NCBI RefSeq assembly: GCF_016811235.1
Contig: NZ_JAFBID010000006.1
Location: 94,857-158,856, forward strand
DNA: 64,000 nucleotides
Source of the DNA: Microvirga arabica
GTDB taxonomy: Bacteria; Pseudomonadota; Alphaproteobacteria; Rhizobiales; Beijerinckiaceae
Direction of reading: 5' to 3'
The notes under the pieces were generated by a model that ran no database searches, was not told the origin of the DNA, and saw nothing but the letters and a program-made list of their open reading frames with translations. How positions within the stretch are numbered: position 1 is the stretch's first letter; every line of letters starts with the position of its first letter. Of this stretch, positions 11,446 through 47,721 are shown piece by piece. Position numbers and translations under genes: made by a program.

Positions 11446-11446
11446 T

Positions 11447-16884: not shown

Positions 16885-17031
16885 AATGGCGGAGAGGGGG
16901 AGATTCGAACTCCCGATACGGTTGCCCGTATGCCGCATTTCGAGTGCGGTGCATTCAACCACTCTGCCACCTCTCCGGGGTGCGAAGGCCGTCAGGCCCG
17001 CTGGTTGAGGCGGGGTGGATATCATGGGCTT
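16885..17031. repeat. 147-bp direct repeat, left copy (island boundary, putative att)
   Basis: Identical base for base to 47575-47721 and in the same orientation. It covers the whole tRNA-Ser gene plus 55 bp beyond its 5' end; identity stops sharply on both sides. The two copies enclose about 30.7 kb of mainly defence-type genes. Confidence 0.9.
16887..16976 (-). tRNA. tRNA-Ser(CGA), left copy
   Basis: Read on the minus strand this is a 90-nt class II tRNA with encoded CCA. The acceptor stem GGAGAGG pairs with CCTCTCC; the anticodon arm CCGCA-CTCGAAA-TGCGG gives anticodon CGA (codon TCG); there is a long variable arm and a GTTCGAATC T-loop. Identical to the copy at 47577-47666. Both copies look intact and share 55 bp of 5' flank, so both may be transcribed. 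Confidence 0.95.
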
Positions 17032-17210
17032 CTTCAGTAGACGTGCAAGCGGCTGAGGCGTGCCGGACGCGCCGCAGAAGTGCCGCTAAGCTCTCTAGCC
17101 CAGCACTGGCTTACCGAGAGAGCAATTCAGGGAGATATACCAGAGATGCAAGCGTTATGCAATAACATTGCCATATCGTTTCCGTTTCCTTGCGACCCTG
17201 CTTAGCTTAT

Positions 17211-17238
17211 GTTCGAGCCAAGACTCGAACAAAGGTTC
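17211..17238 (+). promoter_or_regulatory. Overlapping inverted repeats upstream of hsdM
   Basis: GTTCGAG-CCAAGA-CTCGAAC (17211-17230) overlaps GAAC-AAAG-GTTC (17227-17238), ending 8 bp before the hsdM ATG. These mutually exclusive stems, or a dimer operator, could control methylase expression. A smaller repeat GTTAT-GCA-ATAAC lies at 17154-17166. Confidence 0.4.
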
Positions 17239-17246
17239 AGGGGCTA

Positions 17247-18812
17247 ATGCTTACGGGTGAACTAAGAAACAAGATTGACCGTATTTGGGACGCCTTCTGG
17301 GCCGGAGGTATCGCCAATCCCCTCGAGGTGATCGAGCAAATCACTTACCTGCTCTTTATCCGTGGCCTCGACGACGTGCACACGCGGGAGGAGAACAAGG
17401 CAAATCGGCTCCGGCGCCCTATGGAAAGGGTGATCTTTCCGGGAGGGAAGGACGAGCGCGGCCTTACCTTTGAGGAGATGCGCTGGTCGCGCTTCCGCAA
17501 CAAGGCCCCGGCCGAGATGTTCAATATCGTCGGCGAGCATGTCTTCCCTTTCATCCGCTCTATGGCGGACGCGGACACCGCCCATGGGGCGCACATGAAG
17601 GGCGCGCGTTTTACCATCCCGACGCCCGCACTCCTCGCTAAAGTGGTCGACCTTCTAGCAGAGATCCCGATGGATGACCGGGACACCAAAGGCGACCTCT
17701 ACGAATACATGCTCTCGAAGATCGCGAGCGCCGGTCAGAACGGGCAGTTCCGCACGCCGCGCCAAATCATCGCGCTCATGGTCGAGATGACGGCGCCGGG
17801 GCCCAGGGACGAGATCTGCGACCCAGCCGCGGGCACCTGCGGGTTCTTGGTTGGAGCCGGGGAGTATCTTCGTGACAACCACCCGGAGATCTTCCGGGAC
17901 GAAGCCCTACGCCGTCATTTTCACGACAGCATGTTCCATGGCTTCGACTTCGATGGCACCATGCTGCGGATCGGCTCTATGAACATGATCCTGCACGGAG
18001 TCGAGAACCCAGACATCCGCTATCGGGACTCGCTCGCGCAGGACAACAACGGTGATGCAGAGCGCTACAGCCTAGTCCTCGCCAATCCTCCCTTTGCGGG
18101 ATCGCTCGATTACGAGACGACGTCTAAGGACCTGCTGAAAGTCATCAAGACGAAGAAGACTGAGTTGCTGTTCCTCGTCCTCTTTCTCAAGCTCCTGAAG
18201 CCCGGCGGACGCGCCGCCGTGATCGTGCCGGATGGGGTGTTGTTCGGCTCCTCCACTGCGCACAAGACGATCCGAAAGATGTTAGTTGAGGACCACCGCC
18301 TCGACGGCATCGTGAAGCTGCCGTCGGGCGTGTTCCGCCCCTATGCGGGTGTCTCAACCGCCATCCTGCTCTTCACCAAGACCAATTCAGGCGGCACCGA
18401 CCAGGTCTGGTTCTACGACTGCCAGGCCGATGGCTTCTCCCTCGATGACAAGCGCGTCCCACTGCTACCAGACGAGAAGCTTGGGCCGACGCCGAGCCGG
18501 AGTGAGGGCTCAAATTTCGTTAGTATCCCGCTGACCAATGACGAGCAGGCGAAGAACAACCTACCTGACATTGCAGCTCGCTGGCGCGAGCGGACCGGCA
18601 CTGAGCGGAAGCGCAGCCGCACGGCACAAAGCTTCTGCGTGCCGAAGGCTGAAATCGCAGCGGCCGACTACGACCTCTCGCTCAACCGCTACAAAGAGGT
18701 GGTGCACGAAGCGGCTGAGCACCGCCCACCGCAGGAGATCATTGCCGAACTGAAAATGCTCGAGGCTGAGATCGCCGAGGGATTGTTGGAGTTGGAGGCC
18801 ATGCTGCCGTGA
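17247..18812 (+). CDS. hsdM: Type I restriction-modification DNA methyltransferase subunit
   Basis: N6-adenine methylase subunit of a type I R-M complex, 521 aa. The N-terminal HsdM helical domain (LRNKIDRIWDAFWAGG) is followed by the SAM-binding motif DPAAGTCGFLVGA near residue 192 and the catalytic NPPF at Asn280. The ATG at 17247 was chosen because the family begins near it (LTGELRNKID); an in-frame start at 17190 adds 19 residues without family character. It overlaps hsdS by 4 bp (GTGA) and is the first gene of the island's leftmost operon. Confidence 0.95.
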   Translation: MLTGELRNKIDRIWDAFWAGGIANPLEVIEQITYLLFIRGLDDVHTREENKANRLRRPMERVIFPGGKDERGLTFEEMRWSRFRNKAPAEMFNIVGEHVFPFIRSMADADTAHGAHMKGARFTIPTPALLAKVVDLLAEIPMDDRDTKGDLYEYMLSKIASAGQNGQFRTPRQIIALMVEMTAPGPRDEICDPAAGTCGFLVGAGEYLRDNHPEIFRDEALRRHFHDSMFHGFDFDGTMLRIGSMNMILHGVENPDIRYRDSLAQDNNGDAERYSLVLANPPFAGSLDYETTSKDLLKVIKTKKTELLFLVLFLKLLKPGGRAAVIVPDGVLFGSSTAHKTIRKMLVEDHRLDGIVKLPSGVFRPYAGVSTAILLFTKTNSGGTDQVWFYDCQADGFSLDDKRVPLLPDEKLGPTPSRSEGSNFVSIPLTNDEQAKNNLPDIAARWRERTGTERKRSRTAQSFCVPKAEIAAADYDLSLNRYKEVVHEAAEHRPPQEIIAELKMLEAEIAEGLLELEAMLP

Positions 18813-20014
18813 ATACTCACAGCAAAATCATCACGGACGTCGCCCGAAGCCGACCATTAGGGGAGCTCCTCGAATTCAGGAACGAGATCGTTCACCCGAA
18901 AGATAAGCCAGTCGGACAGGCCGTGTTCGTTGGCTTGGAACATGTTGAGAGAGATACGGGGATACGCATCGGTTCCGAGCAGATTGAACTGGGCGGGATG
19001 ACGGGACGACGCGCGCGCTTCAAAGAAGGAGACATCGTCTACGGGTATTTGAGACCATATCTCAATAAAGTGTGGATTGCTGAATTCGACGGCATATGTT
19101 CAGTCGACCAGTATGTCTTCAAGGTGAGTAGTAGCGTTGACCGAAACTATGTCGCGCATTTCCTGCGAAGCGATGCCTTTTTAAGAACCGCTCCGATCGA
19201 CGCAGCTCCGGGGCAACTACCTCGCATACGATCAGGCGAGATTGCAGCTACTCCGATCCCACTCCCGCCGCTCGATGAGCAGCGTCAGATCGCAACTATC
19301 CTAGACAAGGCGGACGCGCTTCGCCGGAAGCGCAGGCGCACACTGAAGTTACTCAACGAACTGCTCCATTCAACTTTTATGGAAGTCTTTGGAAACGAAA
19401 TTTTTGGCGCAGACCCAGAACGCTTTCAGCCGATTGCAAGCATTTCTACACTCCAAAATGGGGCTTATTTCCCTAAAGAGAAATACAGCTTATCCAAGTC
19501 TGGAGTAGAGATGGTTCATATGAGCGATGCGTTCAATGGTATCGTCAGTAGAGGGGAACTCAAGCGGGTAAATTGTAGCGCCGCAGATGTCGCAAAGTAT
19601 GGCCTGCTCAACACAGATCTCCTGATTGCACGGCGATCGCTAAATTTTGAGGGTGCGGCCAAACCGTGTTTGATTCCAAACTCCGAAGAACCTCTAATCT
19701 ATGAATCATCGTTTATCAGGATACGCCCTCATTCAGAAGCCGTAAGGGCGGAATATCTGTTTTACTATTTATCAAATTCCTACGTGCGCCAAAAATACAT
19801 TCTGCCATACATTACACAGTCGACTATATCCGGAATAAACCAGTCAAACTTATCTAAGATTCCAACTCTTGTGCCGACCATAGGAGAGCAAGAACGGTTT
19901 ATTAATGCTCTGAATTCGATCCAGCGCCAGCGAACGAAGTCGTTATCCGCACTTCCTGCTGCAAACGAGCTGTTCTCATCGCTTCAGCAACGCGCTTTTT
20001 CTCAGACGCCTTGA
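18809..20014 (+). CDS. hsdS: Type I restriction-modification specificity subunit
   Basis: DNA-recognition subunit, 401 aa, GTG start overlapping the hsdM stop. Two target-recognition domains (about 10-150 and 200-350) are each followed by a conserved coiled-coil spacer. The first spacer contains LPPLDEQRQIATILDKADAL, the second PTIGEQERFINALNSI. Base composition is more AT-rich in the second half, as is usual for swapped recognition domains. With HsdM and HsdR it sets the bipartite recognition site, which cannot be predicted by eye. Confidence 0.93.
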   Translation: MNTHSKIITDVARSRPLGELLEFRNEIVHPKDKPVGQAVFVGLEHVERDTGIRIGSEQIELGGMTGRRARFKEGDIVYGYLRPYLNKVWIAEFDGICSVDQYVFKVSSSVDRNYVAHFLRSDAFLRTAPIDAAPGQLPRIRSGEIAATPIPLPPLDEQRQIATILDKADALRRKRRRTLKLLNELLHSTFMEVFGNEIFGADPERFQPIASISTLQNGAYFPKEKYSLSKSGVEMVHMSDAFNGIVSRGELKRVNCSAADVAKYGLLNTDLLIARRSLNFEGAAKPCLIPNSEEPLIYESSFIRIRPHSEAVRAEYLFYYLSNSYVRQKYILPYITQSTISGINQSNLSKIPTLVPTIGEQERFINALNSIQRQRTKSLSALPAANELFSSLQQRAFSQTP

Positions 20015-20031
20015 ACAGATGACGCCATAGC

Positions 20032-23000
20032 ATGTCTAACTTCACCTTCCTCGCGGCCGAATTTGGAAACATTCATGATGCGGCGGTCGCAGCGGAGCGG
20101 CATGTAATTTCCGATCCGACAGCGGCAGCTTTTTTCGCAGGCAAGACTGTTGAGATCGCCGTCAAATGGACGTTCCGGAACGATCCAGGGCTCTCCCTGC
20201 CTTACCAGGACAACATCGCCGCGCTGCTGCACGAGCCGAGCTTCAAGCGGCTCGCGGGCGAGGCGGTGTTCGCCAAGGCGAAGTTCATCAACCGACTGCG
20301 CAACCGAGCTGTGCATGAGGAGAAGACGATCACGGTGGCTGATGCACTCGGCGCCGTGAAGGAGCTCTTTCATGTCTGTTTCTGGCTCGCCCGCACCTAT
20401 GGCAAGGTCACGCGGCCGGCGGACGGCCTCGCCTTCGACCCCAAGCACCTGACTCGGCGCGAGGATGCGCTACGCACCGCCTTTGTGCACCTCAAACAGC
20501 AGCAGGCGGCGTTAGAGGCCAAGGACGGTGAGCTCACTGCACTCCTGCGGGACAAGACCCATCTCGACGTGGAGCTGAAGCGTCTTCGCGCCGAGGTAGA
20601 GGCGGCCCGAAGAGCTAACGTGGCAATCCCTGACCGGCACGACTACAATGAGGCCGAGACCCGCGACCGCTTCATCGATTTGCTTCTCAGAGAAGCTGGC
20701 TGGGCGCTGGACCGGCCAGAGGATACTGAGTTCGAAGTCCAGGGCATGCCGAATGCCCAGGGCATCGGCTATGTGGATTACGTGCTCTGGGGCGTGGACG
20801 GCAAGCCGCTCGGCCTCGTCGAGGCTAAGGCGACGAAGCACAGCGCCCAGAAAGGTCAGCAGCAGGCGAAGCTCTACGCTGACTGCCTCGAGAAGCGCTT
20901 CGGCCAGCGCCCAGTGATCTTCCTCTCCAACGGCTACGAGCACTGGATTTGGGACGACACCCGCTACCCGCCGCGCCAGATCGGTGGCTTTTACAAGCGT
21001 GACGAGCTCGAATTACTGATCCAGCGCCGCACGAGCCGCAAGGTTCTCGCCGCAGAGCGCATTGATCGCAAAATCGTCGAACGACCCTATCAGCACCGCG
21101 CTATCCGCGCCATCGCGAAAAGCTTCGAGGAGCATTTGGAGCGCAAAGCGTTGCTCGTGATGGCGACCGGCTCCGGCAAGACCCGCACGGTGATTGCCCT
21201 CGTGGACTTGATGATGCGGGCCGGTTGGGTGAAGCGCGTTCTTTTCCTGGCGGACCGGGTTTCCCTCGTGAACCAGGCAGTCGGCGCCTTCAAGGCGCAC
21301 TTGCCGGATTCTGCACCGGTGAACCTCGTGACGGAACGGACGGTGGAGGGGCGGGTCTTCCTCTCCACATATCCGACCATGATGAACCTCATAGACGGGA
21401 AGGCACAAGGCACGCGCCAGTTCGGCCCCGGCCATTTCGATCTCGTTGTCATCGACGAGGCCCACCGCTCCGTCTATCAGCGTTACCGCGCCATCTTCGA
21501 GTATTTCGACAGCTTCCTCGTCGGCCTCACCGCGACGCCGAAGGAGGACATCGACCGGAACACCTATGCATTGTTCGACCTGGAGGATGGCGTGCCTACG
21601 GACGCCTATACCCTCGACGAGGCGGTGGCTGATGGGCACCTGGTGCCGCCGCAGGCCATCTCCGTCCCGCTGAAGATCATACGCTCCGGCCTGCGCTACG
21701 ATGACCTCTCGGAGGAGGAGAAAGATCAGTGGGACGCGCTCGAATGGGGCGAGGAGGAGATCCCCGACAGCGTTGAAGCCGCTGAAGTCAACAAGCGGCT
21801 GTTCAATGAGGACACGGCCGACCAGGTCATCGCCCACTTTATGGAAAAGGGCGTGAAGGTCGAGGGTGGTGACCGCATTGGGAAGACCATCATCTTCGCG
21901 AAGAACCAGCCCCATGCCGAATTCATCGAGAAGCGCTTCAATGCCGCCTATCCGCATTTTGCCGGGCACTTCACCCGCGTCATCACCTACAAGACCGACT
22001 ACGCGCAAAGCCTGATCGATGACTTTTCCGAGAAGGACAAGGCTCCGCACGTGGCGATCTCAGTCGATATGCTGGATACGGGCATCGATGTGCCGGAGGT
22101 GGTGAACCTCGTCTTCTTCAAGCCCGTGCGCTCCAAGACCAAGTTCTGGCAGATGATGGGTCGTGGCACGCGACTCTGCCCCGACCTCTTCGGCCCCGGG
22201 CAGGACAAGGAGTTCTTCCGCGTCTTCGACTATTGCGCGAACCTCGAGTTCTTTGGCGCCAACCCGGAGCTGAAGGACGCGTCCGCAGGTAAGTCCCTGT
22301 CCGAGCGGCTGTTCCAAGCCCGGCTCGATTTGGTGCGGGCACTTGATGAAAAGCAGAGCAAGAGCAACGGCGCCGTGGAAGGCGAGGTCGAGGTGCGTCA
22401 GGATGCGCTCCGAGTTCTGCAGGAGACCGTTGCCGGGATGAACCCGGACAACTTTATCGTCCGCCAGCGCCGACGCACGGTTGAGAAATATGCCCGCGCC
22501 GAGGCCTGGGCAGTTATTGACGCCTCGGCGCACGATGAACTCGTGACCGAGCTCGCGCCGCTGCCAAGCGCGATACGGCACGGAACTGAAGAGGCCAAGC
22601 GTTTCGACCTGCTGATGTTCTCCCTTAAGCTCGCGCTTCTGCAGGGCTCGAAGCGATTCGACGGGCTGAGGAAGCAGCTAATCCAAATCGCGTCCGCACT
22701 AGAGGATCAATCCGGCATTCCGGGTATCGCCGCCCAGGCGGAGCTGATCGAGGCCGTGCAAACCGACCACTGGTGGGAGGGCGTGACGGTGCCTCTCCTA
22801 GAGTTGGTTCGTCTGCGCCTTCGTGATCTCGTCCAGCATATCGAGAAATGCTCGCGGGCAATTGTCTACTCGAACTTCGCCGATGAAGTCGGAGAAGAGG
22901 TTGAGCATACATTGCCGCAGGTTGGGGAGGTTGATTTCGTGCGCTTTAAGCAGAAGGCGAGGGCCTTTCTGAAGCAGCACGAGGACCATATCGCTCTCCG

Positions 23001-23403
23001 TAAGTTGCGCTACGGCAAACCACTGACATTGACGGACCTCTCGGAACTCGAATCCATGCTAGTCACAGCAGGCATCGCCCGCACGGAGGACATCGCGCGC
23101 GCTAAGGAGACGAGCCAGGGTCTCGGCCGGTTCATCCGGTCCTTAGTGGGGTTAGAGCGCAAGGCTGTCAGTGAAACATTCTCGGCCTTCATCGCTAACA
23201 GCATGGCGACCAAGGACCAGATCGAGTTCATCAGCATGGTCGTGGAGCACCTAACCGCGCGCGGCGTGATGGAGCCAAGTTCACTCTACGAGAGTCCCTT
23301 CACGGACATTGCGCCGCAAGGCCCGGAGCAAGTGTTTGATGAAAGCACAGTGACCCAGCTGTTTCGGACGATCGAGCAGCTCAACGATGCCGCAGTCGCC
23401 TGA
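20032..23403 (+). CDS. hsdR: Type I restriction endonuclease, motor subunit (with N-terminal DUF4145-like domain)
   Basis: Restriction and translocation subunit, 1123 aa. Residues about 15-120 look like a DUF4145-type helical domain (FFAGKTVEIAVKWTF, FINRLRNRAVHEEKT). Residues about 205-305 are the HSDR_N nuclease with a PD-(D/E)XK core (GYVDYVLWGVDGKPLGLVEAK). The SF2 motor follows with Walker A ATGSGKT near 380, DEAHR near 474 and a helicase C part (DMLDTGIDVPEVVN, MMGRGTRLCPD). The end is an EcoEI-type C-terminal region. Separated from hsdS by 17 bp; the operon ends here with no clear terminator. Confidence 0.94.
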   Translation: MSNFTFLAAEFGNIHDAAVAAERHVISDPTAAAFFAGKTVEIAVKWTFRNDPGLSLPYQDNIAALLHEPSFKRLAGEAVFAKAKFINRLRNRAVHEEKTITVADALGAVKELFHVCFWLARTYGKVTRPADGLAFDPKHLTRREDALRTAFVHLKQQQAALEAKDGELTALLRDKTHLDVELKRLRAEVEAARRANVAIPDRHDYNEAETRDRFIDLLLREAGWALDRPEDTEFEVQGMPNAQGIGYVDYVLWGVDGKPLGLVEAKATKHSAQKGQQQAKLYADCLEKRFGQRPVIFLSNGYEHWIWDDTRYPPRQIGGFYKRDELELLIQRRTSRKVLAAERIDRKIVERPYQHRAIRAIAKSFEEHLERKALLVMATGSGKTRTVIALVDLMMRAGWVKRVLFLADRVSLVNQAVGAFKAHLPDSAPVNLVTERTVEGRVFLSTYPTMMNLIDGKAQGTRQFGPGHFDLVVIDEAHRSVYQRYRAIFEYFDSFLVGLTATPKEDIDRNTYALFDLEDGVPTDAYTLDEAVADGHLVPPQAISVPLKIIRSGLRYDDLSEEEKDQWDALEWGEEEIPDSVEAAEVNKRLFNEDTADQVIAHFMEKGVKVEGGDRIGKTIIFAKNQPHAEFIEKRFNAAYPHFAGHFTRVITYKTDYAQSLIDDFSEKDKAPHVAISVDMLDTGIDVPEVVNLVFFKPVRSKTKFWQMMGRGTRLCPDLFGPGQDKEFFRVFDYCANLEFFGANPELKDASAGKSLSERLFQARLDLVRALDEKQSKSNGAVEGEVEVRQDALRVLQETVAGMNPDNFIVRQRRRTVEKYARAEAWAVIDASAHDELVTELAPLPSAIRHGTEEAKRFDLLMFSLKLALLQGSKRFDGLRKQLIQIASALEDQSGIPGIAAQAELIEAVQTDHWWEGVTVPLLELVRLRLRDLVQHIEKCSRAIVYSNFADEVGEEVEHTLPQVGEVDFVRFKQKARAFLKQHEDHIALRKLRYGKPLTLTDLSELESMLVTAGIARTEDIARAKETSQGLGRFIRSLVGLERKAVSETFSAFIANSMATKDQIEFISMVVEHLTARGVMEPSSLYESPFTDIAPQGPEQVFDESTVTQLFRTIEQLNDAAVA

Positions 23404-25226: not shown

Positions 25227-28200
25227 ATGGATGGAGCCACAACCGGGCACATTGATGATTTTCTGCTGAACCGCTGCCTTTCGATCGACCTTGAGGTTGA
25301 TCCGGGTCAAGCGAAGATTTTCGCCTTTGCCGCCGTTCGCCGCCAAGACCAGGAGAAGGTGGTATTCCGAAATGGGAACCAGGCGGTCGCCCTTGACCGG
25401 CTCGAAAGCCTCGCCTCCGGTGCCGACTTCCTGCTTGGTCACAACATTATCCGATTTGATCTCCCTCACCTCGTAGCGGTGAGGCCCCGCCTCGCGCGAC
25501 TAGCCACAAAGCCAATAGACACACTTTGGCTGAACCCGCTAGCTTTCCCGCGCAATCCATACAACCATCTAGTCAAACACCATCACGATGGGCGGTTGCA
25601 CGCAGGGCATGTAAATGACCCGGAGCTCGACGCGCGCCTTGTGCTCGATGTGCTGGCCAACCAGATCGCAGCCTTTGCAACCCTGGCGAAGGAGAGGCCT
25701 GCCGCTCTTATCGCCTATCACTACCTGACCACTTGCATGCAGGGGAGTGACGGGTTCGACGCACTATTTACCGACATACGCAAAGCACCTCGACCCGGCG
25801 TGGCACAGGCCGAGAAGGCGATGAAGGAGCTGCTTGATGGTCAGGCATGCGCTTCGCGTATCCACCAAACATTGAATCGCCTGTCCTCACCACAACTCAG
25901 TTGGCCGATGGCCTATGCACTTTCGTGGATCTCGGTCGCAGGCGGGGATTCCGTTATGCCACCCTGGGTGCGGGCGCAGTTCCGTGAGGCCTCGCTAATC
26001 GTTAGGCATTTGCGCGACCGCGCGTGCGACGACCCAGGCTGCCATTGGTGCCGCGAGAAGAACAATCCGAAGAAAGCCCTATCGCGCTGGTTCGGCTTCG
26101 ACAGCTTCCGACCGGAGCCAAAGGACGATGTCGGTCGCCCGCTGCAGGAGCGCATTGTCGCCGAAGCAATGGGAGGGAAATCCGTTCTCGGTATCCTGCC
26201 CACTGGCACCGGGAAGTCCGTCTGTTACCAGATTCCGGCGCTGGCGCGGTTCGACAAGATCGGCGCACTTTCCGTCGTCATCTCGCCTCTGGTCGCACTG
26301 ATGGCCGATCAAGTGCAAGGCCTTGCGCGTCACGGAATCAGTGGCTGCGTTACGATCAACGGGCTTCTCTCAATGCCAGAGCGCCATGCTGCGTTGGATC
26401 AGGTGCGGTTGGGCGAAGCGGCCATGCTGCTGATATCACCCGAGCAGCTACGCAGCCCCTCAGTGCGTGCAGTCCTGGCGCAGCGCGAGGTCGGCTACTG
26501 GATCCTGGATGAAGCCCACTGTGTCTCAAAATGGGGGCATGATTTCCGGCCCGATTATCGTTACGTCTCGCGCTTCATCCGTGAGTATTCCGGGGATCAA
26601 GAGCCCGCGCCGGTGATCTGCCTGACTGCGACGGCAAAGCCGGAGGTGGTGCGCGACATCCGTGATCACTTCCAGTCCCGCCTGGGAGTGGAACTGCTTC
26701 TGCTCGACGGCGGTGCGACCCGCCAGAACCTCGCCTTCGAGGTGCACGAGACCCACCGCAGCCGTAAGCTCGCCGACATTCTTGATATGATTGAACGCGC
26801 CCTGCCGCGCGATGGTGCGTCAGGCGCCGTGGTTTATTGCGCCACGCGTGCTACGACTGAACGCGTCGCGAGCTTCCTGCAACAACAGGGGTTAGCAGCG
26901 GACTTCTTCCATGCTGGCCTGACGCCCGAACGCAAGCACGAGGTGCAGGAGCGTTTCCGTGTCGGTGAGCTGCGGGTCATTGCGGCCACCAACGCCTTCG
27001 GTATGGGGATCGACAAACCCGATATCAGGCTGGTGGTGCATGGCGACATTCCGGGCTCCCTTGAGAATTACCTGCAGGAGGCCGGCCGGGCCGGACGTGA
27101 CCGCGATCCGGCGGTCTGCGTGCTTTTGTTCACTACCGAGGATGTCGAACGGCAATTCTCTCTCAGCGCCCGCTCGCGTCTGGCGCGCCATGAGATCAGC
27201 GCGATCCTGAAGGCGCTCCGGCGCTTGGATACCCGTGGAAAGCACAATGGTGAGGTCGTCGCCACCCCGGGCGAGATAGTTCGGGAAGAGACGGCGCAGG
27301 AATTCGAGCGCGATAACGCCACTGACGACACGCGGGTCAAGACCGCCGTTGCCTGGCTCGAAGAATCAACTCTGCTGACCCGGGAGGAAAACCGGGTGCA
27401 GGTCTTCCCTTCCTCGCTGCGTATCCGCACGCTGACAGAGGCCGAGGAAATTCTCTCCAAGATTGAGCTGACCAGAACTCGGCGTAAGCAACTACTGGAT
27501 TTGGTGCGGCATCTAATGACGGCCTCCCCCGATGCTGGTGTCTCGACCGACGAGCTTTCCGGCGCCAGTGGTCTGACCGGTGGCGCACTTCGGAAGGCAT
27601 TGTCCGATCTCGAAGCACTTGGTATCGCGACGGACGATACGGCCATTACGATCTTCGTTCATGTCGGGGTCGAGGGGGCGTCGAAACAGCGGTTCCAGGT
27701 CGCTTCGGCATTGGAGGCCGCGTTGATCGACGCTATGCGCGAGGCGTCGCCAGATGCTGAGGGCGGCGAAGCGCAGCCTCTGCATCTTGCCGCGACCTGT
27801 CAGGTTCTACGCGATCAGGGCCATCTCGGCGTGCGCCCGGACCTGGTTGAGGCGCATCTGCGAAGCTTGGCGCAGGACGGGCGCGACGAGGACGGCGGAC
27901 GCGGCAACATTCATTTGCGCAAGGTGAATCGAAACACTTGCTTCGTGCGACTGCAGCGGTCATGGGAAATGGTGAGCCGGACGGCGGAGATCAGGCGTCG
28001 AGGGGCGGAGCTTTTAATCCAACATCTCGAAGCGCTAGTGGCAAAAGGCACGCGCGGTAAAGATGTCCGGGTCGAGACCACGATGGGCAAGATGCAGTCC
28101 GCCATCACAGGGGACGTTTTCCTGAAGGGTTCAGTCCGGGATGTGACTAAGTTGCTCGGCAGGGCACTCATGTGGCTCCATGAACAGGGCGTGATCACCC

Positions 28201-30350
28201 TTGGACGAGGCCTGACGATCTTCCGCCCCGCGATTACCGTTCACCTGCGCCCCGGGGGTGGACAGTTTACTCAGAAGGATTTCCTCCCTCTCGAGGATCA
28301 TTACTGCGAACAGACCGTCCAGACCCATATCATGGCGGCCTATGCCGAGCGCGGGCTGACCTCGATGAAAGAGGCAGAGAGGCTCGCGCAGGACTATTTC
28401 CAGCTGGACAAAGGAGCCTTCCTGAAGCGCTGGTTGCCGCATCGAGCGGGCGATTTGGACCGTCAAACCACACCGGAAAGCTGGCGGCAGATTGTTGAAA
28501 GTCTCGGAAATTCCGTGCAGTCGAAGATCGTTGCCGATGATCGCGAACAGACCAACGTGCTGGTGCTCGCAGGACCCGGCTCCGGAAAAACACGGGTGCT
28601 GGTGCATCGCGTTGCCTATCTGATCCGGGTCAAGCGTGAAGATCCGCGTGGCATACTTGTTCTAACATACAACCGCCATGCCGCAGTCGAGATCCGCAAG
28701 CGGCTGAAGGAGCTGATCGGCGATGATGCCAACAGCGTAACCGTCTCGACCTGTCACGCTCTAGCGATGCGACTAGTCGGTGCAAGCTTTGCGGGACAGG
28801 TCGAGGCGGATACCCCACATGACTTCGACAAAATTGTAATGGAGGCCGTCACCCTGCTGAAAGGCGAAGGCCTATCGAAGGTCGAGGCCGAGGCGCTCCG
28901 CGAAACCCTGATTCAGGGCTATCGCTGGATCCTCGTTGACGAATATCAGGACATCGGCCCCGAGGAATATGCCCTGATCGCCGCCGTAGCAGGCCGCTCG
29001 TTCGATGACCCGGACCAGCGCCTGAGCCTTTTTGCCGTGGGTGATGACGACCAGAACATCTATGCCTTCGCAGGTGCCTCGATCGATTACATCCGGCGCT
29101 TCGAAGCGGATTACTCAGCGAAGCCCACCTATCTGATTGAGAACTACCGTTCGACGCGGGCAATTATCGATGCAGCAAACCGCGTGATTGCGCCAGCCGC
29201 TAATCGGATGAAGACTGGCCATGACATCACCATCAATCGCGCCCGCGCTAAAGCCCCTGAAGGCGGCGTGCTGGCCTCGCAGGATCCGGTCGCGCAGGGC
29301 CGGGTTCAGCTTTTGCGCACAGCACCGGGCCTTGCAGCGCAGGCCAACGCCGCCGTCGATGAACTGGTCCGTCTGTCACAACTGGTCCCCGACTGGTCTT
29401 GGTCAAAGGCCGCGATCATCGCACGGGAATGGCGGCTTCTAGAGCCAGTGCGGAGCTATTGTGAGGCGCTCGACATCCCGGTTCAACTCGCAAGCGAGGC
29501 CATGCCTCCATTCTGGCGTTTACGGGAAGCTCAGGAATTCCTCAACTTCCTCAAGGCGGAGCCTGCGAAGATGATTGCGGCCGAGGCCGTGAGAGGGTTT
29601 ATCTCCAGGCAGCCTTCGAACCATTGGTGGGATCGGATCTCGGACGGTATCACGGCACTCGACGCCGAACTCGATGGGAAAGCTGTTCCGGTCGCAGATA
29701 TCATCGAGCTGGTGGTCGAATGGACTCGGGACACTCGTCAGGAGCAACGAGGATTGCTGCTTTTGACCGCGCATCGCGCCAAAGGCCTAGAGTTTGACGA
29801 TGTCGTCATCCTTGACGGCGGCTGGGATCGATCCTCGAAGGGGGAGGACCGCGATGCCCCACTCCGGCTGTTTTACGTCGCCATGACGCGGGCAAAGCGC
29901 AGCCTCGCGATCGTTTCAATGCAGGGTCGGCATCCGATCTTGCAAGATGCCGCAGCAACCTTACTGCAGCGGCAGATCACCCCAGATGAGAGAGCCCAGG
30001 CGGATTGTGGTTTGCAGTATCAGACCGTAGAACCACGCATGGTGGATCTGTCCTGGGTAGGCAGGCAGGCGGCAAACCACCCGGCCCATCAGGCTCTCGC
30101 TCGGATACAAACCGGTGATCCTATCGAACTGATAAAGTGCGATGGACGCTGGGAGATTCGCAATGAAAAGGGAGTGACTATTGGACGGATGGCTCAGAGC
30201 TACACGCCGCCCACCGGCTCGCGCTTCATTCGAGGCAAGGCCAGCGCAATCATCCGTTGGCGTAAGGTCGACAACGCAGAGGATTTCCGCGGCGCTCTTC
30301 GGCGCGAAGCTTGGGAGGTTGTCCTCCCAGAGTTGGTTTTCCGGCATTGA
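25227..30350 (+). CDS. DEDD exonuclease-RecQ-UvrD multidomain helicase
   Basis: A very large protein of 1707 aa. Residues about 15-145 resemble a DEDD-type 3'-5' exonuclease: Asp21/Glu23 (LSIDLEVD), Asp78 (GHNIIRFDLPH), Asp135 (NDPELDARLVLDVL), although the usual His or Tyr of motif III is not evident. Residues about 300-660 are a RecQ helicase: Walker A LPTGTGKSVCYQ near 323-330, LDEAHCVSKWGHDFRPDY, and motif VI EAGRAGRDRDP. Residues about 1100-1590 are a UvrD/PcrA-type SF1 helicase: AGPGSGKT near 1115, DEYQD near 1238, VGDDDQNIYAF, ENYRSTRAI, TAHRAKGLEFDDVV, YVAMTRAKRSL. All helicase motors look intact. It stands alone as a single-gene unit, probably acting on foreign or damaged DNA. Confidence 0.9.
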   Translation: MDGATTGHIDDFLLNRCLSIDLEVDPGQAKIFAFAAVRRQDQEKVVFRNGNQAVALDRLESLASGADFLLGHNIIRFDLPHLVAVRPRLARLATKPIDTLWLNPLAFPRNPYNHLVKHHHDGRLHAGHVNDPELDARLVLDVLANQIAAFATLAKERPAALIAYHYLTTCMQGSDGFDALFTDIRKAPRPGVAQAEKAMKELLDGQACASRIHQTLNRLSSPQLSWPMAYALSWISVAGGDSVMPPWVRAQFREASLIVRHLRDRACDDPGCHWCREKNNPKKALSRWFGFDSFRPEPKDDVGRPLQERIVAEAMGGKSVLGILPTGTGKSVCYQIPALARFDKIGALSVVISPLVALMADQVQGLARHGISGCVTINGLLSMPERHAALDQVRLGEAAMLLISPEQLRSPSVRAVLAQREVGYWILDEAHCVSKWGHDFRPDYRYVSRFIREYSGDQEPAPVICLTATAKPEVVRDIRDHFQSRLGVELLLLDGGATRQNLAFEVHETHRSRKLADILDMIERALPRDGASGAVVYCATRATTERVASFLQQQGLAADFFHAGLTPERKHEVQERFRVGELRVIAATNAFGMGIDKPDIRLVVHGDIPGSLENYLQEAGRAGRDRDPAVCVLLFTTEDVERQFSLSARSRLARHEISAILKALRRLDTRGKHNGEVVATPGEIVREETAQEFERDNATDDTRVKTAVAWLEESTLLTREENRVQVFPSSLRIRTLTEAEEILSKIELTRTRRKQLLDLVRHLMTASPDAGVSTDELSGASGLTGGALRKALSDLEALGIATDDTAITIFVHVGVEGASKQRFQVASALEAALIDAMREASPDAEGGEAQPLHLAATCQVLRDQGHLGVRPDLVEAHLRSLAQDGRDEDGGRGNIHLRKVNRNTCFVRLQRSWEMVSRTAEIRRRGAELLIQHLEALVAKGTRGKDVRVETTMGKMQSAITGDVFLKGSVRDVTKLLGRALMWLHEQGVITLGRGLTIFRPAITVHLRPGGGQFTQKDFLPLEDHYCEQTVQTHIMAAYAERGLTSMKEAERLAQDYFQLDKGAFLKRWLPHRAGDLDRQTTPESWRQIVESLGNSVQSKIVADDREQTNVLVLAGPGSGKTRVLVHRVAYLIRVKREDPRGILVLTYNRHAAVEIRKRLKELIGDDANSVTVSTCHALAMRLVGASFAGQVEADTPHDFDKIVMEAVTLLKGEGLSKVEAEALRETLIQGYRWILVDEYQDIGPEEYALIAAVAGRSFDDPDQRLSLFAVGDDDQNIYAFAGASIDYIRRFEADYSAKPTYLIENYRSTRAIIDAANRVIAPAANRMKTGHDITINRARAKAPEGGVLASQDPVAQGRVQLLRTAPGLAAQANAAVDELVRLSQLVPDWSWSKAAIIAREWRLLEPVRSYCEALDIPVQLASEAMPPFWRLREAQEFLNFLKAEPAKMIAAEAVRGFISRQPSNHWWDRISDGITALDAELDGKAVPVADIIELVVEWTRDTRQEQRGLLLLTAHRAKGLEFDDVVILDGGWDRSSKGEDRDAPLRLFYVAMTRAKRSLAIVSMQGRHPILQDAAATLLQRQITPDERAQADCGLQYQTVEPRMVDLSWVGRQAANHPAHQALARIQTGDPIELIKCDGRWEIRNEKGVTIGRMAQSYTPPTGSRFIRGKASAIIRWRKVDNAEDFRGALRREAWEVVLPELVFRH

Positions 30351-30707: not shown

Positions 30708-31610
30708 ATGCTGTCGTTGCCAGCAGAAGCCGGCTACGGCTTTAATGAGCCACTTAAGCTAGATAAATTACAATCAGGTAAGATTATGCCGTGGGGACCT
30801 TTCCAAGAGCAACAACTCTACAATCGGCGACGTGATATCCACGCCGTCTATGGAGGACAACAACAAGGCGGCATCTGCACGCCGGGTGAGCACACCGTCG
30901 TAATCGTCTTCACTGGCGAGAGCGGTGAGCAGCACGGCTATGCGGACGGCTGGACGAACGAAGGCACCTTTCGCTACTTTGGCGAGGGTCAAGTTGGGGA
31001 AATGGTCTTCCAACGTGGCAATCGCGCCATCCGCGACCATCTCATGGACGGCAAGGACCTCCTCGTCTTCCAGACGAGGGGCCGGGAAGGAGTGCGGTTT
31101 CTAGGGCAGTTCGAATGTGCTGGTTACAGCTTCGAGATGGCACCAGACCGGGAAGGCAATCAGCGTCGGGCTATTGTATTCGAGCTCGTTCCTAGTAGCG
31201 CCACAGACGATCTGATCGAAACAGAACAGCTGCCCGACCAAGCTGAGACCGACCTCTCAGCTCTGCGCCGACGGGCTTTCATTGCCGCACAAAGCACGCC
31301 TCAGACCACTGGCGCCGAGGCTCGGCGCAGCCTTTACCGTCGGTCAGAAGCCGTGCGTCGCTACGTCCTCGCGAGAGCAGCAGGTGTATGTGAAAGCTGT
31401 GAGAAGCCAGCCCCGTTCATGACCTTGAAAGGGCAGCCCTATTTGGAGCCTCATCATACGCGTCGACTTAGTGATGGTGGGCCGGACGATCCTCGCTTTG
31501 TCGGAGCAGTTTGTCCAAGCTGCCATCGAGAAATTCACCATGGTGTTCATGGGTCAGCGAAGAACGACGTTTTGATTGAAGTTATCCGACGGAAGGAGGC
31601 TGGCGCTTAA
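30708..31610 (+). CDS. SRA-like/HNH endonuclease, type IV restriction-like
   Basis: Protein of 300 aa. Residues about 30-165 match the ScoMcrA-type SRA-like domain that reads modified bases (LYNRRRDIHAVYGGQQQGG, ICTPGEHTVVIVFTGESGEQ, HGYADGW). Residues about 215-285 are an HNH nuclease with zinc-binding Cys228/Cys231 and Cys269/Cys272, catalytic-region His249-His250 and His277. The predicted role is cutting DNA carrying modified cytosines or other modified bases. The start is uncertain: ATG 30708 or ATG 30786, the latter just before the conserved part. The stop overlaps that of the converging gene at 31607 (shared TTAA). Confidence 0.83.
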   Translation: MLSLPAEAGYGFNEPLKLDKLQSGKIMPWGPFQEQQLYNRRRDIHAVYGGQQQGGICTPGEHTVVIVFTGESGEQHGYADGWTNEGTFRYFGEGQVGEMVFQRGNRAIRDHLMDGKDLLVFQTRGREGVRFLGQFECAGYSFEMAPDREGNQRRAIVFELVPSSATDDLIETEQLPDQAETDLSALRRRAFIAAQSTPQTTGAEARRSLYRRSEAVRRYVLARAAGVCESCEKPAPFMTLKGQPYLEPHHTRRLSDGGPDDPRFVGAVCPSCHREIHHGVHGSAKNDVLIEVIRRKEAGA

Positions 31611-37032: not shown

Positions 37033-38025
37033 TCAATTCAGGCGGGTAGCAAGATCTGTTGCGCGAAGATGGGTGTATCTAGAGAGCATTCGGAGTTCTT
37101 TATGTCCGGAGATCGCGCTGACCTCAATGGTGCTCAGGCCTTTCTCGAATAGGCGAGAGACAGCTTCGTGACGAAGGTCATGGAGACGAAGGCCTGCTAC
37201 ATTGGCTCTGGCCTTTAGGCGAGTCCATGCCTGCTCGAGGGCTCCAGGCGTCAAGGGAAACAAGCGCTCCGTAGATAACGTATTGGTGGACCTGAGGGCT
37301 TGTATTGCTTTGATGGCACGCGACGACAGTGGCACATCGCGAGATTCACCATTCTTAGTTCGCGTTAGGTGCACGATGCGGGCATTGAGATCTACATCGG
37401 CCCATGTGATCGAGAGAAGTTCGCCCCGTCGCATCCCGGTCTCAATCGCGACGATCAGCAGCGACTTGAGACAAGGTGTCCGACCCGTCTCGCACGCGTC
37501 GAGAAGGCGCTGCTCTTCTTCGCCTTCCAATCTCCGGCTGCGTGCATTTGCAACGATGGGGCGGCGAACCCGCTTTACTGGATTAAAGGCGAGGTGATAG
37601 CCCCATTCACGCTGAGCGACCTCGATTGCGTGAGAAATAATCGCGAGTTCGCGAACGACGGTAGAGGATGCAACTTTCTTCATACGCTCGTCACGATAAC
37701 TGGCGATGTCAGCGCTGCTAAGACCTGCCAGTGTGCGATGACAGATGTCGTGCCGAACAAGGACGTCGATGCGCTGAATCTCCTGGAGGGCGCCTCTCTT
37801 GGTTGGTGAGACCTCATCGCGATAGCGACGAAGGAGGGCGCCTAGGGTGATGTTCTCGGCAGGACGAGTGTCAGACGCGCGCCCGAAGCGATCGACTTCC
37901 GCTTCAAGCTCACGGGCCCAGCGCTCAGCCTCTGCCTTTGTGTCAAATGACTTGGCCCTTGGCTTCATGCCTTTGCGTCGAACCGCAGCCTGCCAGCGCC
38001 CACGTAGCTTTCGAATTGTCGCCAT
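37033..38025 (-). CDS. Tyrosine recombinase/integrase
   Basis: Phage-type integrase of 330 aa. Residues about 1-50 are an arm-binding-like domain, 55-150 a SAM-like core-binding domain, and 160-325 the catalytic domain. Catalytic residues are all visible: Arg199 (TGMRRGE), Lys224 (RTKNGES), His282 and Arg285 (HDLRHEA), His308 (SGHKE), nucleophile Tyr317 (SRYTHL). It should be able to move the island or a part of it. It is odd that it lies about 20 kb from the left repeat and 9.5 kb from the right one rather than at an island end. Confidence 0.93.
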   Translation of the reverse strand: MATIRKLRGRWQAAVRRKGMKPRAKSFDTKAEAERWARELEAEVDRFGRASDTRPAENITLGALLRRYRDEVSPTKRGALQEIQRIDVLVRHDICHRTLAGLSSADIASYRDERMKKVASSTVVRELAIISHAIEVAQREWGYHLAFNPVKRVRRPIVANARSRRLEGEEEQRLLDACETGRTPCLKSLLIVAIETGMRRGELLSITWADVDLNARIVHLTRTKNGESRDVPLSSRAIKAIQALRSTNTLSTERLFPLTPGALEQAWTRLKARANVAGLRLHDLRHEAVSRLFEKGLSTIEVSAISGHKELRMLSRYTHLRATDLATRLN

Positions 38026-41323: not shown

Positions 41324-41578
41324 ATGGAGCTTGATAAAGTATCTGAACTGCAGGCGGATGAGCCCGAACTGCAAAGTGAGGTCCGTATTACTGACTGGGT
41401 TGAGCGTCGAGTTGCTGCCGCTCGCTCGAAAGTGCACGTATCAGATGAGGTGGTCTCCAGACTGGTAGAACTCACGCGAGAAAAGTTTTCGTCTGGCATG
41501 ATTACAGCCGCAGAGGTGACGACGATTGCAAGAGAGTTGTTGGCAGTAGTCAACGGTGAGACTGATAATGCCGATTGA
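41324..41578 (+). CDS. Small hypothetical protein coupled to the Rad50-like ATPase
   Basis: Protein of 84 aa, ATG at 41324 after GGCTGGGG. Acidic and helical (ELDKVSELQADEPELQSEV, DEVVSRLVELTREKFSSG, AAEVTTIARELLAVV). It overlaps the ATPase start by 11-23 bp depending on which start is used, so the two proteins are made together. Size and coupling resemble the small accessory subunits of SMC-type defence complexes, but the family is not recognised. Confidence 0.7.
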   Translation: MELDKVSELQADEPELQSEVRITDWVERRVAAARSKVHVSDEVVSRLVELTREKFSSGMITAAEVTTIARELLAVVNGETDNAD

Positions 41579-44096: not shown

Positions 44097-44119
44097 GTCT
44101 TGCTCCCACCATCCCGACG

Positions 44120-44149: not shown

Positions 44150-44281
44150 CGTTTGTGTTGTGAATTCTCTATAGGCGATCACACAGGCGAAGATTGGATG
44201 GGTAGGTGCGCCGCACTGCGCGGGCTGTGAGATCCGGTCGCTAAGGTTCTTCGTCCAACCACGCCCGAGGCAATCGTCGCG

Positions 44282-44602
44282 TCAGCGCTTATTCAGCGGG
44301 ACCACGTTGGATCCGGCCGTGTTGTTGCCCTTGGGTGGTTTGACCTTGCTGAGGAGGGTGGGCGAGACATTCCACTTCTGCCCAGTATCGGTGATTACCG
44401 TCACTGTCTTCTTGTTGTAGCGCGTCAACATGCCCTCAAGTGGGCCCTGGCCAGGAGGCTGGAAGGTGACCCGGTCCCCAATCTTGAAATCCAGCATCTC
44501 CACATGAGCGCGCATCTGGTCGAGAAAGCGCAGGCGCTCGACGATGCGGTGATTGAGATCGATCAGCTCGGCCTCGGTCAGCTGGTCAATGTCGATCGTC
44601 AT
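44282..44602 (-). CDS. Small KOW/SH3-like hypothetical protein
   Basis: Protein of 106 aa, ATG start. The N-terminal helix is ELIDLNHRIVERLRFLDQM. A compact beta-barrel-like part follows: FKIGDRVTFQPPGQGPLEG, then a stretch with VTVITDTGQKWNVSP, which resembles KOW or SH3-like modules that bind RNA or protein. No family name can be given. It lies 162 bp downstream of the topoisomerase gene on the same strand. Confidence 0.6.
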   Translation of the reverse strand: MTIDIDQLTEAELIDLNHRIVERLRFLDQMRAHVEMLDFKIGDRVTFQPPGQGPLEGMLTRYNKKTVTVITDTGQKWNVSPTLLSKVKPPKGNNTAGSNVVPLNKR

Positions 44603-44764
44603 AGCAGTGCCCTCGGTGAAAACTGGGCTGGGGCCAATGAGCGACTGTCTGGCCAGAGATTCTGCATGTCAAGGGCGCGATGCGCCCTCCAAGCGTTGTC
44701 GCGCAGAGAGGCTGTGATACAGGAATTGGAGCAGCAGGTCCGTAAGTGCCGTCAGAGAATTTGG

Positions 44765-47215
44765 CTATTCGTCCCTGCCGGAAGCTACAGTGCGTGCTCG
44801 TGTGCGACGACGAGGGGCCTCAGTTCTTGTATCTGCAGGTCTTCTCGCAGACGCAGACAACCGCTTATGCCCATCACTAGCACTGCCCATCCGGACAGCG
44901 GGAAGTCGGCCTTTGGGAGTGACAGTCCGGTTCATTTCGTGAGGACGCTGTGCTTTTGATGAGTGCTCGTCGAGAAAAGTTCGACAAGCGGCAAAGTCAG
45001 CTAACACTGCTGGTGGACATTCAATCCCCTGCTGCTCGGCAAGCGACCGAGCATAGCGCACCATTGCTTCACTCGGAGGACGCGGCCCCGCCTGCGGAGC
45101 ATCCTTTGCAGGCCCAGATGATCGTTGCGGGACATGCTGGTCAAGGAAGGCTCGACAGATTGCACTATTGCTTTTGAGCCCGCGGGGGAGCTTGAGGCCA
45201 CGCTGGGCAGCAATGGAGGTCGCGAAAGTGATCATCGCCTTGGTTGGCGGCTTCCCATCCGTTGCGGAGAGCGTTGGGATAGAAGCTGGATCGAGAGCAA
45301 CCGCGTCCGATTGGCCGATCGTCGTGATCAGCTCCCTGACACGGCTGCGGGTTCGCTCCTGATAGGCTGTGGCTCTGCCGATCGCCTCAGTTCGCGTGGA
45401 TGCACGCCCGATCTCAGCCAGATCCGCCTCGAACATCGCCCGGCCGACCGGGTCGCCATAGGCGGGAAAAACACGCCGGACGGCTGCAATGAATGCGAGA
45501 CCAACTTCCGTCACCTGGATCGGCGGATCCTTACCCTTCAGCAACTCAACATATTGGCTCTTCTGGAGCTTCGGCAGGATCGTGTCGCGGGTTGCGGCAG
45601 TCCCGAGTCCCTTGGGCTCATTTGGGTTGGCCGGGTTCTCGAGAGCCGCTTTGAGTTTGGGGTCTTCCACCTGATCGACGAGGCGACCCATCACGACCGG
45701 CAACTCGCCGCGTGTGATCCGGCGTGGTGGTTCAGTTTTCGCTGTCTCGATCCGAGCGTCGGCTGCCTTTCCAGGCTCGTTGTCGCGGATCGGCGGGAGA
45801 CGTCCGGTGGTGGGCTCTTCGTCCGGCTTGGCCTTGCCTGGGACAGCCTCGTTCTCCTCGTCAGCCTCGGCTCCATACACTGCCCGCCAGCCAGGCGACT
45901 TGATCACGCTGCCGCTGACCGAGAAGCGCTTCTGACCAAGTGGTGTTGGGACCTGAACAACGACCGTAGTGCGAGCGTCGATGCCGTCGGGCAGGTGCGC
46001 TGCTAGAAAGCTCTTGGCGACCAGCTCCCAGAGGCGAAGATGATCTCCGCTAATGCTCCCTAGCTGGGGCACCTTGCGCAGCGGCACGATGGCGTGGTGC
46101 TCGCCGGGATCCTTGACGTAATGGCCCTTGTTGCCCTTTCGGAACACGAGGTTGCTCGCGGCTGGCACAAGGCTGGCAAGATCGGACAGGGCGCCGACGA
46201 CGCTCTCAATAACCGCGCTGGCATCACCTGTCTGACTCTCAGGCAGGTGCTCGGATTCAGTGCGAGGATAGGTCAGGTAGCCCTGATCGTAGAGCTCCTG
46301 AGCGAGTTTCGCCGTATGCTGTGGATCCCAGCCGAAGCGCTTGGCGCAGCGACGTGCGAGAGTGTCCTTGGAGAACAAGCGAGGGGGCGATCGACGCACG
46401 TCCTTCTGGTCGACGCCAAGCGGGCCCGACCAGATTGCGGCCGCCTGCTGAACCGTTTCGGCCACCTGCTTGTCGAGGATCTTGTCCTTTGGCGCATGCC
46501 AGAGGGTGATCTCAGCTCCGCCATCTGTCGCGACAGTCAGAGCAATCTTGAAATAATCTTGCGGGATGAAATCACGGATGCGCTTCTCGAGGTCAGCCAG
46601 GATCGCGAGCGTCGGAGTCTGCACACCACCGAAGCGCCAGGGCTGTCTGAAAGCTGGCGGCCGGAGCCTTAAAGAGATGGCGCGCGTGCCGTTGAGCCCC
46701 AGGTGATAGTCCTCATATTGGCGGCATAGGGCCTCTAGATAGGCAGCATAGTCCCGCTCGCCGGAATCGGGCTCCTTGGCCATCGCCGCAAAGGCACGTC
46801 GGATTGAGACTTCATCGAGAGCACCCAGCTTGAGGCGATCTACCCGACCTCGATAGCCAAGATGCTCAAGCACCTCCCAAGCAATCATCGAGCCCTCGCG
46901 GCCTGGGTCGGTGGCGATGATGACGCGCTCCACGCCCTGAAGAGCTTGCTTGATTGCCTCGATTTTCGGCTTGTGCGACTGGCCGGAGCGGCTGGTGCCG
47001 TATGTAACAGGAATACGCTCGAGCACAATCGGCAGCGTATCAAGGCGCCAAGACTTCCATTCATCCCGAACATTGCCGGGTTCCTCGGCAGCCAAGAGAT
47101 GGCCCTCGGCGGAGACGCAGACCGTGCTCGGTGATTTGAAGAACCGCTGCAGCTGGCGCATGGCTGAGGGCTTCTCAAAGAAGAACAGCGTGCGTGAGGC
47201 TGATTGAGCGGTCAT
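44765..47215 (-). CDS. Type IA DNA topoisomerase (TopB-like) with altered TOPRIM motif
   Basis: Protein of 816 aa. The TOPRIM domain is at residues about 8-130: Glu14 (FFEKPSAM), then ATDPGREGS at 101-109. The topoisomerase core follows with FGGVQTPTLAIL near 195 and nucleophile Tyr316 (YLTYPRTESEHL). The usual TOPRIM DxDREGE reads D-P-G-R-E-G-S here, so the second metal-binding Asp (Gly105) and a Glu (Ser109) are replaced. The C-terminus carries two copies of a roughly 45-residue module (starting at PPTKAMITFATSIAAQRG and PPSEAMVRYARSLAEQQG) and a very basic tail. Topo III-like genes are common on plasmids and integrative elements. Last gene before the right island repeat. Confidence 0.9.
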   Translation of the reverse strand: MTAQSASRTLFFFEKPSAMRQLQRFFKSPSTVCVSAEGHLLAAEEPGNVRDEWKSWRLDTLPIVLERIPVTYGTSRSGQSHKPKIEAIKQALQGVERVIIATDPGREGSMIAWEVLEHLGYRGRVDRLKLGALDEVSIRRAFAAMAKEPDSGERDYAAYLEALCRQYEDYHLGLNGTRAISLRLRPPAFRQPWRFGGVQTPTLAILADLEKRIRDFIPQDYFKIALTVATDGGAEITLWHAPKDKILDKQVAETVQQAAAIWSGPLGVDQKDVRRSPPRLFSKDTLARRCAKRFGWDPQHTAKLAQELYDQGYLTYPRTESEHLPESQTGDASAVIESVVGALSDLASLVPAASNLVFRKGNKGHYVKDPGEHHAIVPLRKVPQLGSISGDHLRLWELVAKSFLAAHLPDGIDARTTVVVQVPTPLGQKRFSVSGSVIKSPGWRAVYGAEADEENEAVPGKAKPDEEPTTGRLPPIRDNEPGKAADARIETAKTEPPRRITRGELPVVMGRLVDQVEDPKLKAALENPANPNEPKGLGTAATRDTILPKLQKSQYVELLKGKDPPIQVTEVGLAFIAAVRRVFPAYGDPVGRAMFEADLAEIGRASTRTEAIGRATAYQERTRSRVRELITTIGQSDAVALDPASIPTLSATDGKPPTKAMITFATSIAAQRGLKLPRGLKSNSAICRAFLDQHVPQRSSGPAKDAPQAGPRPPSEAMVRYARSLAEQQGIECPPAVLADFAACRTFLDEHSSKAQRPHEMNRTVTPKGRLPAVRMGSASDGHKRLSASARRPADTRTEAPRRRTRARTVASGRDE

Positions 47216-47574
47216 AACCTACAATATTGCAATAAGATTGCGGTCTTCAGTCCAAAGCGGACGCGAGCCTGCAATCGAGAACGGATAGAGAACACTACTC
47301 GCAGTGACATTGCTGGTCAACGGAAGGATAGGACTGGAGGCTGAGCAGCGCTAACGGCACTCTCACCTAACCGGAGACAGGGCGCTCTCTGATGTCTTCA
47401 GAGCCTGCACGGCAGAAGCAGCGTTGTCCGGCTAGGGGGAATAGCCGGGCAGGAACCAGGTTAGAGGACGAGTGCCGCGATTGTGACCGTCACACTTTAT
47501 CCAAGAAACAGCAGCTCGCACTTCAATCCAGCAGCGGAAGTTGAGGCAGCTAAGTTGTTATTTTGATTGAATTA
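47216..47574. other. Intergenic region at the right island edge
   Basis: This 359-bp gap is upstream of the topoisomerase gene and ends at the right 147-bp repeat. It should hold the topoisomerase promoter; a small palindrome ATTGCAAT lies close to its ATG. No gene seen. Confidence 0.45.
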
Positions 47575-47721
47575 AATGGCGGAGAGGGGGAGATTCGAAC
47601 TCCCGATACGGTTGCCCGTATGCCGCATTTCGAGTGCGGTGCATTCAACCACTCTGCCACCTCTCCGGGGTGCGAAGGCCGTCAGGCCCGCTGGTTGAGG
47701 CGGGGTGGATATCATGGGCTT
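47575..47721. repeat. 147-bp direct repeat, right copy (island boundary, putative att)
   Basis: Identical to 16885-17031. The right-hand neighbour is the rplU promoter and the conserved core block, so this copy is probably the native tRNA locus. The left copy would then be the one brought in or duplicated with the island. Confidence 0.9.
47577..47666 (-). tRNA. tRNA-Ser(CGA), right copy
   Basis: Same 90-nt tRNA as at 16887-16976: anticodon arm CCGCA-CTCGAAA-TGCGG, long variable arm, encoded CCA. The two genes are identical including 55 bp of 5' flank. Confidence 0.95.

Follow-up and report, generated by a model that had tools for sequence, protein, structure and literature searches.

In this study, we describe a 30.7-kb genomic island in a member of the genus Microvirga which carries a complete tRNA-Ser(CGA) gene at each of its two ends. 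The window, i.e. the whole stretch of DNA that was analysed, comprises 64 kb (G000:C213:94857-158856) of a 6.67-Mb draft genome in 246 contigs; named matching relatives in the genus are M. vignae (G019), M. lotononidis (G017) and Microvirga sp. VF16 (G020). Judged from the sequence, the island is quite probably an integrative element, whose own tyrosine recombinase would insert it at the tRNA-Ser(CGA) gene on the side of rplU (a gene which we take, from its protein sequence, to be rplU) by means of an attachment site of the element (attP) that likely holds the complete gene together with its upstream flank. The long attachment (att) site looks like a habit of this integrase clade rather than an oddity of the window island.

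The initial annotation had pointed to a perfect 147-bp direct repeat with abrupt ends, and this was confirmed: the two copies (Table 1) are identical at 147/147 positions, and the next base on either side is mismatched. The repeat is far above chance, since the next-best direct repeat within the window spans only 36 nt at 75%. Equally borne out was the presence of a full tRNA-Ser(CGA) gene with 55 bp of 5' flank in each copy, which ARAGORN and Rfam both recognise (RF00005, 60.1 bits for each copy; gathering score 29). Each copy includes 2 bp beyond the 3' end of the tRNA and 55 bp before its 5' end, and the tRNA 3' ends point left in the window. The next matches to the repeat in the whole genome are tRNA-Ser(TGA) and tRNA-Ser(GGA), with 82% and 78% over about 90 nt. 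The island thereby has direct repeats including tRNA sequence at both ends, as is characteristic of integrative islands in tRNA genes.

A further trait of an integrative island, a tyrosine integrase gene inside, is present as well. The gene is uninterrupted, and its product of 330 aa shows residues of what we take to be the RxxR...HxxR...H...Y type. Integrase matches at E <= 1e-20 were found in 22 of 48 Microvirga genomes, a close one (83%) only in M. vignae, where the integrase likewise lies between two full tRNA-Ser(CGA) genes, 19.6 kb apart. The Microvirga search gave 30 loci; 15 of them have a tRNA gene (Ala, Thr, Arg, Ser or Pro) within a stretch of about 4 kb, the usual distance to the integrase being about 110 bp. 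From named genomes 79 integrase loci were kept. At an identity of at least 63% (39 named loci), a tRNA-Ser(CGA) gene is found in the same direction, 0.9-6.3 kb upstream, in 32, and three of the seven other loci have less than 3.3 kb of upstream DNA; some loci at 55-61% identity are near tRNA-Arg(CCG). In a tree of 81 integrase proteins, partial loci excluded, all 32 loci with tRNA-Ser(CGA) fall into one group (support 100/97). The integrase clade occurs mostly in Hyphomicrobiales.

Searching 37 genomes of this clade for the tRNA (locus L137 was left out), we found two full copies on one contig around the integrase in 22. Together with the window island and M. vignae, these make 24 pairs. Within the pairs the tRNA bodies are identical (90/90) in 19, the remaining ones showing 89/90, 87/90, 81/90 and, in two cases, a length difference of 1 nt. 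On the 3' side homology ends 0-7 bp beyond the tRNA in the 24 pairs. On the 5' side it covers 50 bp or more in 16 of them and 39 bp or more in 20, in some pairs with reduced identity. This common layout around homologous integrases of one clade supports one of the two origins offered by the initial annotation, an unusually long att region. Of ten Microvirga elements at tRNA-Ala, -Thr or -Arg with an integrase about 49% identical, a full distal tRNA is present in seven; in one further element a short insertion interrupts the full tRNA, another retains a fragment (positions 30-77), and the last has nothing in the available DNA. Among 11 loci of still more distant homologues (39-46% identity) with an adjacent tRNA, a set from which we draw no conclusion, there is a partial distal repeat in one, a 23-bp match to the upstream flank only in another, and nothing in the available DNA in nine. 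The window genome itself holds a second element (L324, G000:C164:8600-28599), whose integrase, 48% identical to that of the window, adjoins tRNA-Thr(GGT) and which has an 80-bp perfect repeat with a full tRNA-Thr about 9.3 kb away. At another such element (L310, G068:C1) three full tRNA-Ala(CGC) genes stand in a row at 70-145, 7751-7826 and 7946-8021, which suggests tandem insertion into a duplicated gene.

The ends of the tRNA-Ser(CGA) islands share a two-part motif, one form of it lying to the right of the proximal tRNA and the other to the left of the distal flank. It was derived from 21 sequences, read at their ends; 20 of the 24 pairs served for motif finding and the other four were held out. 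The right motif reaches at least 10/12 in 23 of the 24 pairs, at +79 to +100, and the left motif at least 11/13 in 14 of them, at -89 to -137. In the held-out pairs each motif is found in three of four. Moreover, all of 11 further held-out right ends reach at least 10/12, at +81 to +93, giving 14/15 for the right motif in combination; they come from 13 loci, of which one has a distal copy only and one is without tRNA. As background, 37 of 127,966 window positions reach 10/12 for the right motif. We read the two-part motif as integrase arm sites. Both arms lie at a similar distance from the middle of the tRNA, a spacing which fits strand exchange in the anticodon region without demonstrating it. 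The integrase would then act at the island ends with the motif as its arm sites, and strands would be exchanged within the tRNA gene, possibly on the side of the anticodon half. By such an insertion the resident gene would keep its own promoter, while the distal copy would arrive with the element; afterwards, the two gene bodies may stay alike by youth or by gene conversion.

Concerning the site of insertion, the copy beside rplU is, by its surroundings, the native one. The DNA on its rplU side is conserved in 36 relatives of the same genus. In pairwise comparison with 14 relatives, conservation sets in with the 3' end of the tRNA, except in a few pairs in which it begins up to 250 bp earlier. 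Apart from these few, no collinear match of at least 200 bp was found to the left of this copy; there are some non-collinear matches, and in the relative G013 the rplU side amounts to only 347 bp. Relatives carry a single tRNA beside rplU with different DNA to its left, and in G009 the same topoisomerase end as in the window island is joined to tRNA-rplU. A second repeat copy of at least 130 bp is absent from 44 of the 48 Microvirga genomes, the own genome included; more than one such copy occurs only in G000 (the window genome), G018, G019 (M. vignae) and G035, and the only long copy of G024, counted among the 44, ends at a contig edge. The island is thus absent from relatives at the same site, though its exact empty site was not found. 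The initial annotation had expected in relatives a single tRNA next to both rplU and the cyclase region. The single tRNA beside rplU was indeed found, but the cyclase (14294-16474) does not adjoin it: each of the 24 relatives with a long cyclase match has that gene either on a different contig or 400 kb or more from the tRNA. For the R. johnstonii 3841 island, a joined-flank search across 397 genomes of the order likewise yielded no exact empty site. In this search 74 genomes match at E <= 1e-30, and because homology among the matches listed stops at the tRNA 3' end or within about 11 bp of it, the tRNA-Ser(CGA) site looks like an old, busy insertion hotspot.

The left arm of the window (1-16884) encodes ABC and TRAP transporters, a RuBisCO-like protein, FecR and CHASE2-cyclase proteins. 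By comparison with relatives the left arm belongs to the tRNA-rplU locus but is a mosaic, since blocks of it, from the window or from further left on the contig, lie 1.1-29.7 kb left of a single tRNA-rplU in six relatives (G006, G008, G011, G014, G027 and G028). The blocks sit at different places in different species. A nested second island left of that in the window was also considered; a tRNA remnant sought further left on the contig gave no significant match.

The 5' flank of the distal copy is informative about what the element carries. In Microvirga all 39 rplU-linked tRNA bodies examined are identical, so identity of the bodies says little and the 55-bp flank is the informative part. The distal flank of R. 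wenxiniae equals the resident flank of AFS049984 at 63/65 bases and its own resident flank at the last 18 only. AFS049984 in turn has a distal flank equal to the R. daejeonense flank in the last 40 bases and to its own resident in the last 4, and the extra copy in G035 shares its last 40 flanking bases with the resident flank of the window genome but only 3 with its own. As some distal copies carry the 5' flank of another species, attP likely transports the whole tRNA gene. In Phyllobacterium, Ensifer and Rhizobium RCAM05350, a tRNA body specific to the host adjoins a foreign flank, and we infer that this combination calls for gene conversion or a similar process. The two copies of AFS049984 differ only at tRNA positions 46-62, the unusual type being on the rplU side, which hints at an exchange in the 5' half of the tRNA; those of M. 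vignae, which differ at three positions, are readable either way as to the crossover point.

Several observations weigh against an integrative element that moves itself in this manner. The integrase is tied to the island ends by association only, and it sits 9.5 kb inside the island, unlike its tRNA-adjacent relatives at the element end. The exact empty site of the window island was not found in the relatives searched. Among the 37 clade genomes, an Allorhizobium has a distal piece of 80 nt only, four long-contig carriers (G446, G464, G467, G472) are without a second full copy, and the ten with contig edges, copies on separate contigs or no full match were likewise counted on this side. Upstream sharing is merely 4, 8, 24 and 29 bp in four of the 24 pairs. 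Furthermore, some distal genes look decayed: that of A. salinitolerans has lost 1 nt, and the copies of G018 and G035 carry changes.

Could two tRNA-Ser(CGA) genes that were already in place have given rise to the island by homologous recombination, with the integrase as a passenger? The 147 identical bp are long enough for such recombination, and in several species the pairing of a host-specific body with a foreign flank suggests that recombination or conversion between copies does occur. Still, a second copy of at least 130 bp exists in only four of the 48 Microvirga genomes, the two-copy layout tracks one integrase clade across genera, and the end motifs lie at fixed distances, so that we regard this origin as unlikely. 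Recombination between two tRNA copies, the other option of the initial annotation, is unneeded for the origin of the island, but it may keep the copies alike. A different explanation would have attP contain a short 3' part of the tRNA only, the longer match having arisen after insertion, when the native copy converted the distal one. Bodies that are identical despite foreign flanks do require some homogenising process. Conversion from the native copy, however, cannot give the flank of another species, which is what the distal flanks of R. wenxiniae and AFS049984 match, and full distal genes in seven of ten sister-type elements at tRNA-Ala, -Thr and -Arg likewise speak against a short attP; we consider it quite unlikely.

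The draft state of the genome, with its 246 contigs, invites the suspicion that the layout is an assembly error at the 147-bp repeat. This is most improbable, as M. vignae and R. johnstonii 3841, the latter with a complete chromosome, share the layout, each end of the window island has its motif, and the topoisomerase end in G009 is likewise joined to tRNA-rplU. An integrative element with a complete tRNA gene in its attP remains the reading that we prefer.

Table 1. Repeat copies, end motifs and genes of the island and its rplU border, in window coordinates.
Feature	Position	Strand	Remarks
Distal repeat copy	16885..17031	-	Full tRNA-Ser(CGA) at 16887-16976 plus 55 bp 5' flank; ARAGORN, Rfam
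Left-end motif	17049..17065	-	11/13 to CGGCRCN4CGGCCAC; shuffle fraction 0.023; putative integrase arm site
hsdM	17190-18812	+	Type I restriction-modification; start uncertain
hsdS	18809-20014	+	Type I restriction-modification
hsdR	20032-23403	+	Type I restriction-modification
Fused helicase	25227..30350	+	1707 aa; RecQ-like and UvrD-like helicase halves
HNH nuclease	30708..31610	+	Matches type IV restriction models
Methyltransferase	32047-32721	-	
Unnamed protein	32621-33646	-	Weak PtuB-like match
UDG-like protein	33768-34433	-	
Tyrosine recombinase (integrase)	37033..38025	-	330 aa; uninterrupted
NYN protein	38352-39200	+	
Mrr-like nuclease	39565-40095	-	
Deoxyribosyltransferase-like protein	40096-41040	-	Below Pfam cut-off
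SMC-like ATPase	41556-43904	+	
Topoisomerase III-like gene	44765..47215	-	Right end of island; occurs in relatives too
Right-end motif	47472..47488	-	11/12 to GGCCACN5CGGCRC; putative integrase arm site
Proximal repeat copy	47575..47721	-	Native, rplU side; full tRNA-Ser(CGA) at 47577-47666; ARAGORN, Rfam
rplU	47933..48325	+	Native neighbour of tRNA-Ser(CGA)

As in a defence island, several known defence genes are found together (type I restriction-modification, matches to type IV restriction-like models and further nuclease domains), accompanied by several small proteins without match. By these similarities the island genes likely serve anti-phage defence, and with a cargo so rich in genes for restriction and nucleases, the element probably disseminates phage defence. 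Pfam domains for conjugation (relaxase, type IV secretion) were absent from the 20 larger island proteins to which the scan was confined. Ten proteins were scanned from the sibling islands of R. johnstonii 3841 and Rhizobium sp. LC145; each of these islands has a type IIG-like restriction-methyltransferase, and further matches are to CapP/RmrA-like, PD-T4-3 and PD-Lambda-2 models. All three clade islands with scanned cargo thus carry restriction and other likely defence genes. Relatives of the fused RecQ/UvrD-like helicase are present on 35 plasmid records, and in eight of these the match spans 80% or more of the query. One plasmid, pMVF16-5 of Microvirga sp. VF16 (NZ_CP069359.1, ~117-127 kb), has the fused helicase (95%), the topoisomerase end of the island and, matching perfectly over 105 bp, the tRNA end of the repeat; no integrase is listed within the 30 kb viewed, where the gene table is incomplete.

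Att blocks spanning complete tRNA genes are known from SLP1 and phage HP1, whose hosts and elements differ from the present ones. In the available sections of its description, Islander defines an island by one intact tRNA gene plus a displaced fragment and rejects matches inside a full-length tRNA gene (PMC4383910). One complete and one partial tRNA copy are also called the typical outcome in another paper (PMC9897764). The window island resembles the islands of the Islander model, as far as these sections go, in its tRNA target, tyrosine integrase, bounding direct repeats and intact resident gene, but differs from them by its internal integrase and the full gene at both ends (PMC4383910); its distal repeat is complete where an Islander-type island has a tRNA fragment only. 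Identity blocks of up to about 250 bp between the left and right att sites (attL and attR) appear in excerpts of another study (PMC10111431); compared with these, the block described here spans the whole tRNA and the upstream flank, and does so clade-wide. Such a whole-tRNA block exceeds what is needed for repair of the resident gene if exchange takes place inside the tRNA. A Paracoccus yeei prophage lies beside two tRNA-Pro(TGG) genes, a layout which its authors propose to result from duplication of the whole tRNA gene upon integration (PMC6209633, in part); unlike the window island it is a single prophage with 52-nt repeats at the gene starts, and the parts at hand describe no clade-wide pattern. 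Integrative and conjugative elements of Mesorhizobium, a genus of the same order, also lie beside tRNA genes including tRNA-Ser, but in the portion of the text available they are described with short core sequences (PMC8627217). Among open-licence papers, we found none on this integrase clade or on islands flanked by whole tRNA genes as a group. Long att blocks and one tRNA-duplicating prophage are therefore known in print, and the clade-wide habit was not found there. Taken by its sequence features, the window island is likely a variant of the known tRNA-targeting islands, with an attP that holds a complete tRNA gene.

Tentatively, and as a possibility somewhat short of probable, we propose that the clade moves a complete, promoter-bearing tRNA gene in its att site, that each insertion would add a working tRNA and a fresh target, and that a foreign distal 5' flank may record an earlier host. 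The clade, present in many Hyphomicrobiales, and the related Microvirga group at tRNA-Ala, -Thr and -Arg often break the rule of one intact gene plus one fragment. Where both ends hold a full-length tRNA, such islands would be missed by the filter of Islander. The distal flank offers a route to naming earlier hosts of an island from sequence alone. Moreover, part of the tRNA gene duplication in these genomes probably reflects island ends and not growth of the host gene set.

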